From Defluviitaleaceae bacterium (GTDB lineage: Bacteria > Bacillota > Clostridia > Lachnospirales > WQUN01), in the NCBI GenBank assembly GCA_009785615.1, contig WQVX01000017.1, positions 1 to 32,421 on the forward strand: a DNA stretch of 32,421 bases, in the 5' to 3' direction. Positions 4,055-32,248 of this stretch are shown one piece after another. A model generated the notes under the pieces. It ran no database searches and was not told the origin of the DNA. It saw only the letters and a list, made by a program, of their open reading frames with translations. How positions within the stretch are numbered: position 1 is the stretch's first letter; each line of letters opens with the position of its first letter. Both the position numbers and the translations under genes were made by a program.

Positions 4055-5089
<1,035 letters not shown>

Positions 5090-5180: not shown

Positions 5181-5219
5181 GATGGGCAACCGGTAACAAA
5201 ATGAGACCGATTGCCCATC
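5181..5219. repeat. Constant-loop hairpin repeat, copy 1
   Basis: A 14-bp stem (5181-5194 with 5206-5219, one C/A mismatch) closes the loop AACAAAATGAG (5195-5205). The same 11-nt loop with a different stem occurs at 22173-22209, and a degraded reverse-oriented copy at 24820-24846. It sits between divergent promoters, so it is not a terminator of either gene. An 8-bp AATAGGCA occurs on both sides (5159-5166 and 5234-5241) and could be a target duplication. Confidence 0.65.
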
Positions 5220-5432: not shown

Positions 5433-8400
5433 ATGGCTAAAGAAGTTAAGGTAATTGATGGTAACGAGGCAGCAGCATATATTTCTTATGCATTTACTGA
5501 AGTTGCCGGAATTTATCCAATCACACCATCCTCCAACATGGCAGAATGGGTTGATGAATGGGCTGCAAGAGGCAAAAAAAATATTTTTGGACAAGAAGTT
5601 AAAGTTGTAGAAATGCAATCTGAGGCCGGTGCTGCCGGTACTATGCATGGTGTGCTTCAAGCTGGCGCACTTGGCACCTCGTATACTGCTTCCCAGGGTC
5701 TACTACTGATGATTCCGAATATGTACAAAATGGCTGGAGAACTACTGCCGGGGGTACTTCATGTTAGTGCCAGAGCTGTAGCGGCTCATGCACTTTCTAT
5801 TTTTGGTGATCATTCTGACGTAATGGCTTGTAGCCAAACAGGTTTTGCATTGCTTGCGTCTACTAATCCTCAACAAGTAATGGATTTAGGTGCTGTTGCT
5901 CATTTGTCTGCAATCCAAGGGCGCGTGCCTTTTTTACAGTTCTTTGACGGGTTCCGCACATCTCATGAGATGCAAAAAGTAGAAATGTTGGATTATTGCG
6001 ATCTTAACAAAATTGTGGATCACGATGCTATCAGAAGATTCCGCGATAATGCACTTAACCCGGAGCATCCTGTATTACGTGGCACTGCACAAAATCCTGA
6101 TATTTTCTTCCAGGCAAAGGAAGCAAGCAACTCTTTTTATGAAGCTATTCCTTCTATTGTTGAAGAAAATATGAAAAAGATCAACAAGCTTACCGGGCGC
6201 AACTATCAATTATTTAATTATTATGGTTGCTCTAATGCAGAAAATGTAATCATAGCCATGGGTTCTGTTTGCGATACCATTGAAGAAACTATAGATTACC
6301 TTAATGCCAAAGGTGAAAAAGTTGGACTGATTAATGTTCATCTATATCGCCCCTTCTCTATCAAGCATTTGTTGCAGACTATCCCTGCAAGCGTTAAAAA
6401 GATTACTGTTTTAGACCGTTGCAAAGACCCGGCCGGCATGGGCGAGCCTTTATATAAAGATGTTTGTACTGCGTTTATAGAAATGGAAAAAGAGCCTCCT
6501 ATCATTGTAGGCGGACGTTACGGACTAGGTTCTAAAGATGTGTTTCCATCCCAAATTATAGCTGTATTTGAAAATATGAAAAAATATAAGCCTCTTAATC
6601 ATTTTACTGTAGGTATTGAGGATGACGTAACACACAAGTCGCTACCTGTTGGACCCTATGTAGATGTTATTCCTGAAGATACTAAAAGTTGCAAATTTTG
6701 GGGTTTAGGCTCTGATGGTACAGTATCAGCAAATAAAAATGCTATTAAAATTATTGGTGATACCACTGATATGTACTCTCAAGCGTATTTTTCTTATGAT
6801 TCAAAAAAATCCGGCGGTATTACACAATCCCATTTGCGCTTTGGACACAAGCCTATACGTTCTCCTTACTTGGTTAAAACTGCGGATTTTGTGGCATGTC
6901 ATAATCCTTCTTATGTAGACAAATACGATATGCTGAGAGACCTTAAAAACGGCGGAACTTTCTTGCTTAACTGCCTATGGAGTGACGCTGAAATAGATGA
7001 TAAACTTCCTGTTGCCATGAAGAAAGAGATTGCAACACGGGATATTAAATTTTATGCAATTGATGGTATAGGTATTGCTAGTGATTTAGGCTTAGGACGC
7101 CGCATTAATACTATTTTGCAGGCCGCATTCTTTAAGCTTACTGACATTGTGCCTTTAAAAGTAGCTGTTCAGCATATGAAAGATGCTGCTACCGCTTCTT
7201 ATGGGCACCGTGGTGATGATATAATAAAAATGAACCATGCTGCTGTTGATGCTGGTGCATCTAAGGTTCGTGAAGTGAAAATTCCTGCATCTTGGGCTAA
7301 ATTGGAGATATCTGCGCCAATTGTTCCCAATGTGCCTGATTTTATAAAAAATGTAGCTATGCCTGTTAATGCTCAGAAGGGCGATTTCTTGCCGGTAAGT
7401 GCATTTAGGGGTCGTGAAGATGGTACCTTCCCACAAGGCACAGCTGCTTATGAAAAACGTATGGTTGCTGTAGATGTACCACGCTGGATTCCGGCAAATT
7501 GTATCCAATGTAACCAATGTTCTTACGTATGTCCTCATGCTACTATCCGTCCTTTTCTTCTTACCGAAGCAGAAGCTAAAAATGCCCCCGATGGCTATAA
7601 AGTACTTGATGGAACCAAAGGATACGAAGAATACAAGTACAACCTTGGCATCTCTATTATGGACTGTTATGGTTGTGCTGAATGCGTACGAACATGCCCT
7701 GCAAAAGAAAAGGCTATTGTTATGGAACCTGTAGAAAGTCAATTGCATGAACAACCTAACTGGACATATTCCATGAATTTGGCAGAAAAGCCAAATCCAA
7801 TGAGTCCGCTTACTGTAAAAGGTAGCCAGTTTGAAGTGCCACTGCTTGAATTTTCCGGTGCTTGTGCAGGTTGTGGAGAGACACCTTATGCTAAATTGGT
7901 GACTCAACTATATGGAGATCGCATGTATATTGGCAATGCAACAGGATGTTCTTCTATATGGGGAGGCAGTGCGCCTTCTATGCCTTTTACTACTAATCAA
8001 GCCGGAAAAGGGCCTGCTTGGGCAAACTCCCTCTTTGAAGATACTGCTGAGTTTGTTTTAGGGTTCCAATTTGCTGTTAAACAACGTCGTGAAAAATTGG
8101 CTGACATAGTGAAAAAAATTATTGTTTCTGAAAAAGCACCTACAGACTTAAAAGAAGCCGGTAAAGAGTGGATCGAGTCTTATAATGATGGAACCAAAAC
8201 TAAAGTTGCTTCTGAAAAACTACGTTGTGCTAACAAAAAAGCGTTGGAAACATGTACCTGTGCAGCAGCTTGTTGTTGCGGCGGTGATTTAAAAGCTTTA
8301 TACAAGCATATTGCGGCTGAAGATGATATGCTTGTTAAGAAATCTGTATGGGCATTTGGTGGCGACGGCTGGGCTTATGATATTGGTTTTGGTGGCCTGG

Positions 8401-8987
8401 ATCACGCAATTGCTTCCGGGGAAGATATCAATATATTGATATTTGATACAGAAGTATATTCCAACACAGGTGGGCAATCCAGTAAAGCTACTCCTACAGC
8501 ATCTACTGCTAAATTTGCCTTTGCCGGTAAGCAAATTAGCAAAAAAGATTTGGGACTTATTTGCATGAGCTACGGGTATGTATATGTTGCATCTGTAGCC
8601 ATGGGTGCAAATCAAAATCAGACACTTAAAGCCATTGCAGAAGCCGAAGCATATCCGGGGCCATCCGTGGTGCTGTGCTATGCGCCATGCGTTGCCCATG
8701 GTATTAAAGGTGGCCTTATAGCTCAAGAGCAATCAAAGAAAGCAGTAGATGCCGGATACTGGCATCTATATCGTTATAATCCACTTTTAGCTGACGAAAA
8801 TAAAAATCCTTTTATTATGGATTCTAAAGACCCATCTGCAAGCTTCCAAGATTTTATTAGAAGCGAAGTGCGCTATACAGCTTTGGAGAGGGCTTTTCCT
8901 GAAGAAGCGACTATATTGTTTGCTGCTGCGGAAAAAGACGCCAAAAGGCGGCTGGCGGCTTATAAGCGTATGGCGACAGAGATGTAA
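5433..8987 (+). CDS. nifJ: Pyruvate:ferredoxin (flavodoxin) oxidoreductase
   Basis: The 1184-residue single-chain enzyme decarboxylates pyruvate to acetyl-CoA and CO2 and reduces ferredoxin; it is central to anaerobic fermentation. The N-terminal pyrimidine-binding domain begins with YPITPSSNMAEW. A two-cluster ferredoxin domain has CxxCxxCxxxC at Cys690/693/696/700 and Cys745/748/751/755. The TPP-binding domain has CAGCGE (Cys811, Cys814), a third ligand in NATGCSS, GGDGWAYDIG and the EVYSNTGGQSSKATP motif. The ribosome site GAAGGAG lies 12 bases ahead. One oddity is a Cys-rich linker, residues 932-949, with Cys at 932, 941, 943, 947, 948 and 949, just before the TPP pocket motif; these are not ligands of the three known clusters. 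Length is otherwise typical. Confidence 0.97.
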   Translation: MAKEVKVIDGNEAAAYISYAFTEVAGIYPITPSSNMAEWVDEWAARGKKNIFGQEVKVVEMQSEAGAAGTMHGVLQAGALGTSYTASQGLLLMIPNMYKMAGELLPGVLHVSARAVAAHALSIFGDHSDVMACSQTGFALLASTNPQQVMDLGAVAHLSAIQGRVPFLQFFDGFRTSHEMQKVEMLDYCDLNKIVDHDAIRRFRDNALNPEHPVLRGTAQNPDIFFQAKEASNSFYEAIPSIVEENMKKINKLTGRNYQLFNYYGCSNAENVIIAMGSVCDTIEETIDYLNAKGEKVGLINVHLYRPFSIKHLLQTIPASVKKITVLDRCKDPAGMGEPLYKDVCTAFIEMEKEPPIIVGGRYGLGSKDVFPSQIIAVFENMKKYKPLNHFTVGIEDDVTHKSLPVGPYVDVIPEDTKSCKFWGLGSDGTVSANKNAIKIIGDTTDMYSQAYFSYDSKKSGGITQSHLRFGHKPIRSPYLVKTADFVACHNPSYVDKYDMLRDLKNGGTFLLNCLWSDAEIDDKLPVAMKKEIATRDIKFYAIDGIGIASDLGLGRRINTILQAAFFKLTDIVPLKVAVQHMKDAATASYGHRGDDIIKMNHAAVDAGASKVREVKIPASWAKLEISAPIVPNVPDFIKNVAMPVNAQKGDFLPVSAFRGREDGTFPQGTAAYEKRMVAVDVPRWIPANCIQCNQCSYVCPHATIRPFLLTEAEAKNAPDGYKVLDGTKGYEEYKYNLGISIMDCYGCAECVRTCPAKEKAIVMEPVESQLHEQPNWTYSMNLAEKPNPMSPLTVKGSQFEVPLLEFSGACAGCGETPYAKLVTQLYGDRMYIGNATGCSSIWGGSAPSMPFTTNQAGKGPAWANSLFEDTAEFVLGFQFAVKQRREKLADIVKKIIVSEKAPTDLKEAGKEWIESYNDGTKTKVASEKLRCANKKALETCTCAAACCCGGDLKALYKHIAAEDDMLVKKSVWAFGGDGWAYDIGFGGLDHAIASGEDINILIFDTEVYSNTGGQSSKATPTASTAKFAFAGKQISKKDLGLICMSYGYVYVASVAMGANQNQTLKAIAEAEAYPGPSVVLCYAPCVAHGIKGGLIAQEQSKKAVDAGYWHLYRYNPLLADENKNPFIMDSKDPSASFQDFIRSEVRYTALERAFPEEATILFAAAEKDAKRRLAAYKRMATEM

Positions 8988-13891: not shown

Positions 13892-15667
13892 CTACCTTAC
13901 TAATATGAGAATAGTATCTTCGCTCAGCCTTTCAAGCACACGATAGCCTTTTCCTGATGGACTGTGTGTAGCTATTCCAATAGCATTATGTTGGCAAAAG
14001 CCATTTTCTCTACCGGTTCCATCATCACGTACAATTAATTTGCCCATCATACCAACAGGTGCCCATTCTTGGCGATCAAGCCTTGTAACATAAGTTAACC
14101 CGGGGTCGTAGTTAGGATTGAGTATAGGGACATATTCACGAGTAGAAACTTCTCTTGTGTGTCTTAGTGGCATTGGAGGTATATCAATGCCATTTTTATG
14201 TGCCTCTTTTACGGCCTTATGCCACTCTTCCATCTCATCTTCATCGAAATAGTGATGTTCATGTGTTACATTAACATATTCGTGTATTTTTGCGCCAAAC
14301 TTATCACGCAAATACATATCTGACCAACCGGTACCATGAGCATCACCAATTATAGATGGAGTACCGGATACTACGCCCAAAATATAATCATCGTGTGGAT
14401 TTGCAAAACGTATCTTTTTACCGTTTAAAGTAACAAAGTATCCTCTTCTATCTTCATTAAGCGGGTTTCCATCTAACCATTCAAACATTTCGGCATAGTC
14501 GGCACCCCCACTAGTAAATGATGATGACGCATGGCCAATCCCACCATATTCAAAGCGGAAGGCATTGCTTCTTAATCCTGTAGCAGAGTTTCCATTGCCA
14601 ATAACTAACATATTAGTTATTGTATCAAGTGCTGAAGCCACATTTAGTACTCCAATTGCAGTTTCATAAGTTCCGTTTGAAATAGTATTGTAATTAAATG
14701 CGGCAGATGAAAATCCAACTGATTGCGATAAAGTTCCAAGTGCCATGGAGCTATTTCCGGATGCTACTGTTTGAAATCCTATAGCAAAACTATCTTGTCC
14801 GGATGCTGTTGTGGTATCTCCCATAGCACTGGAAGCTGACCCGGATGCTGTTGTCTGAATTCCTGAAGCAAAGGGGGCAAATTGCCCTGATGCAACAGTT
14901 TGAGTTCCCAAAGCAATACCGTCTTGTCCTATCGTATATGAGCTTGATTCTACTGTGGAGCCAATTTGACGCAGCGAATTTGTTCCGTTGCCATCAAGGA
15001 GGTTAAGTAATCCATTAGAGCCTGTAGCACCTGTATTGCCTTGTAAGCCAGTCGCGCCTGTAGCACCTTTTAAACTAGTTAGCCAATCAATTTCTATTCC
15101 ACTGAAACCATTATCAACTGCAATTTCATAAGCTGATTTGCCCGTGGCACCAGGTTCTCCCATTGGACCGGTATCACCTATAGGGCCAATTTCTCCGGTT
15201 GGCCCTATGTTACCTTGAATACCCTGATGACCTTGAGGACCCGGACATCCTTGAGGGCCTTGTTTTCCTTCAGGGCCTTCAGGGCCAATTGAACCTTCCG
15301 GCCCTATAGGCCCTTGGGATCCTTGAGATCCTTCCGGTCCCATTGGCCCTTGAATTCCCGCAGGCCCATTGTCTCCTTTGGGTCCGGCAGGGCCACGAGG
15401 TCCAACAGGGCCTGCAACACCCGGATTCCCTTTTACACCTTGAGGCCCTTGGAAGCCCGGATCTCCTTGCGGGCCAATATCGCCGCGTACACCTTGCGGC
15501 CCTTGCAAACCTAACGCACCCATTGCACCCCTCGGACCTACAGGCCCGGGACATCCTTGATCCCCTTTAAGCCCTGTGTTTCCTGTGTCACCTTTAGGGC
15601 CACGTAATCCCTGATTACCTTGTGGGCCTGCCGGGCCTTGAGGACCGGGACAGCCTATTTTTGACAT
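13892..15667 (-). CDS. Collagen-like protein with YadA-type repeats and Peptidase_G2 chaperone
   Basis: The 591-residue protein has three parts. Residues 5-178 form 58 unbroken Gly-X-Y triplets with GCP at Cys6, Cys39 and Cys141. Next is a short phage-tail-type linker ([13 protein letters not shown] and [11 protein letters not shown]), then YadA-head-like 14-residue repeats such as [11 protein letters not shown] and [13 protein letters not shown]. The C-terminal 200 residues match Peptidase_G2, the self-cleaving intramolecular chaperone of phage neck-appendage proteins ([35 protein letters not shown]). These parts together suggest a trimeric fibre that folds with its chaperone and then releases it. 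No signal peptide is visible, so it could be spore-surface, phage-derived or exported in another way. Start follows AAGGAGG. Confidence 0.85.
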
Positions 15668-21969: not shown

Positions 21970-22155
21970 ATGAAAACCAGAGAAACAGTTAGATCATTCC
22001 TGTATTTATGTTTAACATTAATAGTACTTTTTTGCATAGCAATAATATCTATAGATTTTATGTTTCCTTTAGTTAGAATAATTATTGTGGTTATACTTGT
22101 TTTGGGAGGCGTAACATTGATTATTGTGTATAATATTTTTAAGGAAAAATTGTAA
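21970..22155 (+). CDS. Small two-span membrane protein (61 aa)
   Basis: The product has two hydrophobic segments, about residues 10-29 (FLYLCLTLIVLFCIAIISI) and 34-55 (VRIIIVVILVLGGVTLIIV), with basic residues before the first and a charged C-terminus. This is a typical small integral membrane protein of unknown function. The start has only a weak AGAGGT site 12 bases upstream. A hairpin repeat begins 17 bases after the stop. Confidence 0.6.
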   Translation: MKTRETVRSFLYLCLTLIVLFCIAIISIDFMFPLVRIIIVVILVLGGVTLIIVYNIFKEKL

Positions 22156-22172: not shown

Positions 22173-22209
22173 GCGCCCAACCGGTAACAAAATGAGACCG
22201 GTTGGGCGC
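22173..22209. repeat. Constant-loop hairpin repeat, copy 2 (perfect)
   Basis: A perfect 13-bp stem GCGCCCAACCGGT/ACCGGTTGGGCGC (22173-22185 with 22197-22209) closes the same 11-nt loop AACAAAATGAG seen at 5195-5205. The outer stem bases differ from copy 1, but pairing is kept. TAATTTTTG follows, so this copy may also end transcription of the small membrane protein gene. Confidence 0.7.
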
Positions 22210-22324
22210 ATAATTTTTGTAAAATCATCCCGATTAAATCACATTCATCGCCATATTTTGATAGGCAAAATATTCAGTATCGCGAAAATAAAAACGAAAA
22301 ATTCGCTGTCTTTTTGCATATTTA

Positions 22325-22353
22325 TTGTAATATAAGCGTAAACAGAGTATAAT
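22325..22353 (+). promoter_or_regulatory. Promoter of the TIM-barrel gene
   Basis: TTGTAA (22325-22330) and TATAAT (22348-22353) are 17 bases apart, 81 bases upstream of the start at 22435. The leader contains a CTACAG/CTGTAG inverted repeat. Confidence 0.65.
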
Positions 22354-22434
22354 ACCTATTGCTACAGCAACAGGCTTCCTGTAGTACATTAGATCCGGTT
22401 CCACTCAAAAATAATAATTTAAGGATGCTGAAAA

Positions 22435-24819: not shown

Positions 24820-24846
24820 CAACCGGTCTCATTTTGTCACTGATTG
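24820..24846. repeat. Constant-loop hairpin repeat, copy 3 (reverse, degraded)
   Basis: On the minus strand the loop GACAAAATGAG differs at one base from the other copies. The stem (24820-24827 with 24839-24846) has one mismatch and one G-T pair, and pairing stops after 8 bp. It lies between the IS remnants and the cysteine peptidase promoter. About 24607-24810 otherwise contains no convincing gene. Confidence 0.5.
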
Positions 24847-30249: not shown

Positions 30250-31089
30250 TTATATCCTGCGATTTAATGGCCTGCCGGAAACATTTGGCACATGCTCCAC
30301 CGGTATCCAGTTACTGATTTGGTTTCTCTCCAAGTACAAAGTAGTCAAATTAGTAAGGTTGGATAGTGTTTTCAAATTGCTGATCTTGTTGCTGCTCAAG
30401 CCCAGCTCAGTCAAATTAGTAAGGTTTGATAGTGTTTTCAAATCACTGATTTGGTTGCCCCGCAAGTACAGCTCAGTCAAATTTGTGAGGTTGGATAGTG
30501 GTGTCAAATCGCTGATTTTGTTGCGCCCCATGGACAGCCTAGTCAATTTTTTAAGGTTGGACAGTGGTGTCAAATCGCTGATTTTGTTGCGCCACAAGTA
30601 CAAAGTAGCCAAATTAATGAGGTTGGATAGTGGTGTCAAATCGCTGATTTTGTTGCCGCTCAAGTACAAAGTAGTCAAATTTGTGAGGTTGGATAGTGGT
30701 GTCAAATCGCTGATTTGATTACGCCACAAGTACAAAGTAGTCAAATTTGTAAGATTGGATAGTGGTGTCAAATCGCTGATTTGATTACGCCACAAGTACA
30801 AAGTAGTCAAATTTGTGAGGTTGGATAGTGGTGTCAAATCACTGATTTTGTTACCACTCAAGTTCATCCATGTCAAATTTGTCATATAGCTTAGTGGAAC
30901 GATATCTTTATCTAATAATCCTTTATTGCTCAAGTTCAATTCTGTCAAAGAAGTTTTAAATCGCTCTCCTCTTATAGTTATATATCGTGGACACCTATTT
31001 CTATCAACTATACGCTTTCTTAAATTAGCAAATTCATCTTTAAGCATAGCTATAAGTATAGCGGCAATCCCCATTATTTCAGCTCTCAT
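30250..31089 (-). CDS. Leucine-rich repeat protein, internalin-like repeats
   Basis: The 279-residue protein has a short hydrophobic segment near its start (MGIAAILIAML, residues 6-16), a basic stretch, then eight 22-residue leucine-rich repeats (residues 82-257) of the form ISDLTPLSNLTNLTTLYLWRNQ-like (split here as ISDLTPLSNL and TNLTTLYL), with half-repeats at both ends. Such 22-residue repeats form a curved protein-binding surface, as in internalins. The hydrophobic segment is too short to be a sure signal peptide, and there is no wall anchor, so location is uncertain. The start at 31089 follows GGGAGGG, the same GGGAGGGTTTTT start context as the Met-rich microprotein at 11069. Confidence 0.8.
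   Translation of the reverse strand: MRAEIMGIAAILIAMLKDEFANLRKRIVDRNRCPRYITIRGERFKTSLTELNLSNKGLLDKDIVPLSYMTNLTWMNLSGNKISDLTPLSNLTNLTTLYLWRNQISDLTPLSNLTNLTTLYLWRNQISDLTPLSNLTNLTTLYLSGNKISDLTPLSNLINLATLYLWRNKISDLTPLSNLKKLTRLSMGRNKISDLTPLSNLTNLTELYLRGNQISDLKTLSNLTNLTELGLSSNKISNLKTLSNLTNLTTLYLERNQISNWIPVEHVPNVSGRPLNRRI
30319..30846 (-). repeat. Eight 66-bp tandem repeats coding for LRR units
   Basis: The eight units are in frame and differ mostly at a few codons. The first two (residues 82-103 and 104-125) give identical protein and nearly identical DNA, which points to recent duplication or conversion. Such arrays often change in copy number. Confidence 0.85.
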
Positions 31090-31288: not shown

Positions 31289-32248
31289 TTGAAGAAAAAG
31301 ACTGAGGCAGAACTTGCCACCATGCATGTCTATCTGGATGAAGATAAAAAGGCTCTCATTAAGCAAGAATACGGCATTGATGTAGATAGCGAATTATTTG
31401 ACCCTCGCCTGGATTTTGTATCTAAGCGCATCCTTGCTGCTGACACCGAAGAATCCAAAAAGGCACTCGTTTCATTCCTTAACGCAGCATTGAAGCTGAA
31501 AAACAAAAAAAGAGTTGTTAAGGTTCTAAATCCGGTAACTACAGTAGAAAGTTCAAGTCATAAAAAATCCATTTTTGATGTTCGAGTGGAGTTTTTGGAT
31601 GGCTCGGAGGCCATAATAGAAATAGAGTTTCGGAAGAAGGACGACTTCAAAAGGCGCAGTCAATTTTTGATTTCACGGTCTTATGCCAGCCAGGATATAG
31701 CCGGAAAGACATATGATGCCTTGGATAAACGCTATATCGTTTGTGTGCTGAATTACACGTTGCTTGATGATGAAGAGGACGATGATTTCTACCGGGATTA
31801 TATGTACCGTGACAGGAAAGGCAGACCGCTAACAGATGACCTGAATATCATTTTTGTAGAACTTACGAAACTGGATGATTTGCTTAAAAAACCTGTTAAC
31901 AAGCTTACGCCGATTGAATGTTGGGCATTGTTTTTCCGACACTCCACTGATAAAGATAAAAGGGAATTGTTAAGCCAAATAATAGAAAAGGAAGAAGGGA
32001 TAAAGGTGGCTACACAAATACTTCAAACGATAAGCCAAAATAAAGAAGAACGAAGAGCATATGAGGAACAACTTATATTTGAACTTGATCAGCGTTCGGA
32101 AGTTGCTAATGCGAGGAAACAAGGTATAGAGCAAGGAGCTAAAGCCAAAGAAATAGAAATTGCTAAAGGCTTGAAACTAGACAATGTACCTTTTAGTGTT
32201 ATCGTAAAAAACACCACCCTTACACTTCGAGAAATTGAAGCACTTTAA
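31289..32248 (+). CDS. Rpn-family PD-(D/E)XK nuclease / putative transposase
   Basis: The 319-residue protein matches the PD-(D/E)XK nuclease family transposases (recombination-promoting nucleases). The N-terminal signature DPRLDFVSKRILA (38-50) is clear. The catalytic core reads IFDVRVEFLDGSEAIIEIEF, giving Asp97, Glu111 and Glu113; the family usually has E-x-Q at the last two positions, so Glu113 replaces Gln. The C-terminal third is charged and helical, with EQGAKAKEIEIAKGLK, as usual for the family. The start is TTG 31289 with AGGGGG six bases upstream; ATG 31322 would cut into the conserved N-terminus. Such genes occur in many copies and are thought to move or promote recombination. Confidence 0.82.
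   Translation: MKKKTEAELATMHVYLDEDKKALIKQEYGIDVDSELFDPRLDFVSKRILAADTEESKKALVSFLNAALKLKNKKRVVKVLNPVTTVESSSHKKSIFDVRVEFLDGSEAIIEIEFRKKDDFKRRSQFLISRSYASQDIAGKTYDALDKRYIVCVLNYTLLDDEEDDDFYRDYMYRDRKGRPLTDDLNIIFVELTKLDDLLKKPVNKLTPIECWALFFRHSTDKDKRELLSQIIEKEEGIKVATQILQTISQNKEERRAYEEQLIFELDQRSEVANARKQGIEQGAKAKEIEIAKGLKLDNVPFSVIVKNTTLTLREIEAL

Follow-up and report, generated by a model that had tools for sequence, protein, structure and literature searches.

In the published REP families, copies lie downstream of a gene or in the space where two genes converge, and the CGTC REP super-family also stands without a known transposase (PMC3733652). Stem-loop families have likewise been surveyed across 40 genomes (Cozzuto et al., 2008; PMC2267715). 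The hairpin family described here was recognised in a window of 32,421 nt, meaning the whole stretch of DNA that was analysed, and the first-pass annotation of that window had proposed a recognised RNA/DNA hairpin or a REP-like mobile element. The family does show every tested feature of a REP in the broad sense (PMC12306157), being extragenic, a short palindrome and present in many copies. The draft genome yielded neither a REP transposase nor a REP tag to go with it, and mobility would follow from the copy number together with an asymmetry of the loop that the copies share.

Hairpins of the window and their copies in the genome

The window contains three copies (Table 1). The loop, AACAAAATGAG, is an exact match between copies 1 and 2, as had been claimed, and the outer stems of these two differ and still pair, over a perfect 13 bp in copy 2 and over 14 bp interrupted by a single C.A mismatch in copy 1. 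Copy 3 has the 8-bp core stem in imperfect form and no outer stem. Copy 1 occupies the gap between the divergent genes for GAPDH and pyruvate:ferredoxin oxidoreductase. Because the site is upstream of both, a terminator role does not fit there. Copy 2 starts 17-18 nt past the stop of a 61-codon ORF. An Rfam search of the window matched no family.

Table 1. Hairpin copies and other features of the window
Feature	Positions	Strand	Parts	Basis
Copy 1, hairpin	5181..5219	+	core 5187-5213; loop 5195-5205; arms 5181-5194/5206-5219	sequence; model R1, 48.1 bits
Copy 2, hairpin	22173..22209	+	core 22178-22204; loop 22186-22196; arms 22173-22185/22197-22209	sequence; model R1, 60.4 bits
Copy 3, core-only hairpin CAATCAGTGACAAAATGAGACCGGTTG	24820..24846	-		model R1, 31.0 bits
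GAPDH gene	4055-5056	-		Pfam
Pyruvate:ferredoxin oxidoreductase gene	5433-8987	+		Pfam
61-codon ORF	21970-22155	+
82-bp stretch right of copy 2	22301-22382
Protein with collagen-like repeats	13892-15667	-		Pfam
Leucine-rich-repeat-like ORF	30250-31089	-
Transposase gene, PD-(D/E)XK (Rpn-type) nuclease family	31289-32248	+		Pfam PF12784

Several other features of the window were noted in passing. The 82-bp stretch to the right of copy 2 is a ~89% match to part of a ~550-bp repeat; elsewhere, in L095, L104, L120 and L133, this repeat starts at the hairpin. One-mismatch matches to the loop within the leucine-rich-repeat-like ORF stem from its 66-nt DNA repeats, which carry AACAAAATCAG several times, and are unrelated to the hairpin. 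The domain layout of the protein with collagen-like repeats, which adds a YadA head repeat and an autoproteolytic Peptidase_G2 domain, is reminiscent of phage tail fibres. VanW/G5, POR and DUF6128 proteins are among the Pfam matches as well and suggest a Clostridia lineage.

The genome to which the window belongs (G000) is a draft of 240 contigs. The 27-nt core, CAACCGGT[A/G]ACAAAATGAGACCGGTTG, recurs in it 91-101 times at up to three mismatches, whereas the reversed-pattern control gives 0 copies, and the 11-nt loop alone has 43 exact copies against 4 for its reversed pattern. A covariance model likewise returns 94 matches. The family is not due to chance, and the genome-wide search for which the first-pass annotation had called found many copies rather than just three. 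For the analyses below, 94 copies were collected with their flanks, 88 of them non-redundant. Among the fetched loci the nearest copies are more than 2 kb apart and none form close inverted pairs. The exact core has no match in 95 relatives, in the bacterial and archaeal genome collection or among viral contigs.

A uniform core, variable outer stems and sister families

The core comprises an 8-bp stem, a 2x2 internal loop, one C-G pair and an AAAAT apex. It is near-uniform, with 85 transitions to 9 transversions across all copies, and departures from it are equal in long-stem (1.10) and core-only copies (1.06, p=0.87). The outer stem behaves differently from one site to the next. At least 5 further Watson-Crick pairs were formed outside the core in 20 of the 88 copies, against 0.83+-0.9 expected when the right arms were shuffled among copies (maximum 5 in 2000 shuffles). 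In these 20 long-stem copies the stem continues outward for 5-12 bp, with sequences that differ yet pair; the other 68 have no outer pairing. The claim that stems change with pairing preserved is thus borne out for about a quarter of the copies and fails as a description of all.

The outer arms are always in register with the core, with 16 cases against 0.5 expected at offset 0,0 and at most 1 at any other tested offset, and they therefore prolong that same stem instead of belonging to an older hairpin that received the core in its loop. The simple form of a model in which the core inserted into the loop of an existing terminator is rejected, since the arms abut the core in register and leave no remnant of such a loop. 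A purine/pyrimidine pattern beside the core is kept even in copies without pairing, which may reflect GC-rich arms that decay by transitions.

Covariation points in the same direction. In alignment A1, of 81 copies from the own genome, the full-stem score is 0.177 against 0.135 for shuffled alignments, a value reached by 0 of 500 shuffles. In alignment A2, to which sister hairpins of two other genera are added, it is 0.402 against 0.186 (again 0/500), with A2 including pre-selected long-stem copies and the shuffles keeping the relatedness of the copies; because of these two properties the figures count as support for selection on pairing and stop short of proof. Three inner pairs switch between genera (A-U/G-C, U-A/C-G and C-G/U-A). 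The covariation check proposed at the outset thus came out positive, both in outer pairing and in scores above all 500 shuffles.

Two further genera of the family carry many copies of a hairpin built to the same plan from different stem letters (CAGTTGGTCGCAAATTGCGACCAACTG). Searching with the 27-mer brought up a single relative, CAACCGGTCGCAAAATGCGACCGGTTG, from another genus; GGTCGCAAA[A/T]TGCGACC and its near variants, picked up with a follow-up pattern, number 25 and 33 copies in two of the family's genera. With the covariance model these two genera give at least 139 and at least 149 matches, figures in which both strands of a palindrome can count. Five further family members have 10, 6, 2, 1 and 1 matches, the other 30 have no match to the model, and outside the family only two single weak matches occur among 196 genomes of the order. 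Sister hairpins are present in G027, G012, G010 and G033, and among the relatives' matches that were inspected, most form strong stems between A- and T-tracts. The two positions beside the loop that are mismatched in the own-genome stem are paired in the relatives. Because the own-genome copies have this mismatch in common, they appear to go back to a single variant whose numbers rose in this lineage.

A different palindrome, TTCTTCTGAAATTGC...GCAATTTCAGAAGAA, recurs at two G012 loci (L153:2818 and L157:1325) and hints that G012 contains additional families of dispersed palindromes.

Placement, possible terminator function and flanking repeats

Nearly all copies are intergenic, with only 2 of the 94 inside ORFs of at least 100 aa. 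By a simple, crude ORF caller, convergent spaces hold 34% of the copies against 17% of random intergenic points (p=0.001), and the median distance to the nearest gene 3' end is 41 bp against 141 bp for such points. A T-tract, defined as at least 4 T in the 8 positions after the stem on either strand, accompanies 14 of the 20 long-stem copies and 7 of the 68 core-only copies. The predicted RNA folding energy is about -29 kcal/mol for the former and -12 kcal/mol for the latter. The slot 3' of paralogous XRE-type regulator ends holds this hairpin in seven loci; in three others (L186, L189 and L190) its place is taken by unrelated hairpins that resemble terminators. One paralogous pair also has a common convergent neighbour. 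This exchange with unrelated terminator-like hairpins supports a terminator function for part of the copies. The best reading of the sequences is that a minority of the hairpin sites would function as intrinsic terminators. Most copies, as far as their sequence tells, are not obvious terminators, because 68 of 88 are without outer pairing and mostly without a T-tract. The earlier view that the hairpin does not fit a simple terminator role therefore holds for copy 1 and is too strong for the genome, given the 3'-end placement and the T-tracts of long-stem copies.

The flanks of the copies belong to several unrelated repeat families, to the left or to the right of the core, and consist in part of genes (XRE regulator 3' ends) and of neighbouring MITEs. 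The idea that the hairpin is the end of one larger element is rejected on this ground, and the hairpin is therefore the sole common part. A search for empty sites among the repeats of the genome found none and gave only the paralogous pair L101/L190.

Some of the flanking sequences are repeats in their own right. The 3' end of an XRE-type regulator gene recurs almost unchanged in 12 places (L181-L192), mostly at contig ends, and is a multi-copy and probably mobile unit that breaks the assembly. An abundant ~105-bp MITE-like repeat with the ends TATAGCA...TGCTATA (L009:5768-5876, L040, L111, L116 and others) borders the hairpin's left half, or stands in place of it, in L022 and L040. At L009:2840-5800, a restriction-modification-like cluster (an XRE-like regulator, a cytosine-5 methylase-like ORF and an opposite-strand ORF) is flanked by ~190-bp direct repeats that each end in the hairpin, possibly an insertion with a long target duplication.

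Origin of the family and comparison with known systems

The hairpins probably constitute a lineage-specific REP-like family, in which the core is fixed in sequence and the outer stem is conserved in pairing at about a quarter of the sites. Its copies would descend from one ancestral palindrome, all of them sharing the same broken loop symmetry, and would have been scattered across the genome. Copies that combine a long stem with A/T-tracts would act as intrinsic, often bidirectional, transcription terminators, and core-only copies would likewise be products of dispersal, with outer arms eroded mainly by transitions. The spread may most likely have been driven by an activity outside the RAYT family that recognises single strands or hairpins, or by short-tract conversion between existing hairpins. 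Rather unlikely, in our judgement, is a module embedded in terminators, of which the 27-nt core spreads and is homogenised across unrelated sites without a known type of transposase while every site retains a pairing outer stem of its own, giving rise to "dialects" of individual genera.

Could the family instead be the plain consensus intrinsic terminator of this bacterial family, its cores alike by convergence and terminator selection without any dispersal? The perfect stems of 13-20 bp in the G010, G012 and G033 matches, most with A/T-tracts, would suit such a terminator, as would the placement at gene 3' ends and the exchange of slots described above. However, the 94 G000 copies share an asymmetric loop (A.A and R.G mismatches) that is not expected from convergence, the core is equally conserved in copies without a T-tract or outer stem, and one copy of the window lies between divergent genes. 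This explanation is accordingly unlikely. It is quite improbable that the family is a REP/REPIN whose mobiliser, a RAYT (Y1 tyrosine transposase), is absent from the draft or has been lost in recent times. The match to REPs in size, copy number and placement speaks for it, and the Y1_Tnp search of the draft G000 did find one weak, decayed scrap (28 bits), the only match there. The draft genomes G027 and G012, rich in sister repeats, have no Y1_Tnp match, a GTAG or CGTC tag (or its complement) is found at the hairpin foot in only 0-3 of 94 copies on either side, and a paired REPIN/BIME arrangement is lacking. Because of the missing transposase beyond that scrap, the missing tag and the lack of close inverted pairs, the family is not a canonical RAYT-REP.

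Signals of other kinds fare worse. Genus-specific arm variants and a terminator-like hairpin location recall the DNA-uptake signals of Neisseria and Pasteurellaceae, inverted pairs of which have been recruited into terminators, but the arms are practically never single: GAGACCGGTTG occurs 58 times inside and 2 times outside hairpins in 404 kb, and CAGTTGGT is paired 24 times and single 2 times in the G012 loci. With ~100 copies instead of more than 1000 and a fixed loop as well, a DNA uptake sequence is strongly disfavoured and very improbable. An integron attC-like recombination site is effectively excluded. Its hallmarks are echoed in hairpin feet that loosely fit RYYYAAC/GTTRRRY and in flank families that differ between the left and right of the core, yet G000, G012 and G027 have no integron integrase over the cut-off, the copies are not in arrays and have no unpaired central spacer, and 27-50 nt is short for attC.

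The preferred reading, a dispersed REP-like family, would add such a family apparently without a RAYT, and the sister families in related genera make RAYT-less spread of REP-like palindromes testable. Of interest are the three repeat-rich draft genomes without a recognisable mobiliser, the combination of a sequence-fixed core with a structure-only outer stem and genus-specific variants, and the fact that one hairpin is seen in a "plain repeat" and a "terminator" state at different sites.

Compared with known systems, the family resembles the DUS/USS terminators of Neisseria and Pasteurellaceae (PMC1852404) in having conserved inverted arms in terminator-like hairpins that differ between relatives, and departs from them in arms hardly ever found single, a conserved loop and a low copy number. 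With REPs of the GTAG/CGTC super-families it shares a palindrome of 20-40 nt, ~100 intergenic copies placed after genes and in convergent spaces (PMC3733652; broad definition in PMC12306157) and variants specific to a family or species. Unlike these, it is without a foot tag and a RAYT, is not arranged in close inverted pairs, a difference that also separates it from the closely spaced hairpins of REPIN/BIME elements, and resides in a Clostridia-like genome, a lineage suggested by gene content. Compared as a class, the families of Cozzuto et al. (2008) are likewise repeats scattered between genes that have a predicted hairpin in common, from which the present family is set apart by its covariation across genera.
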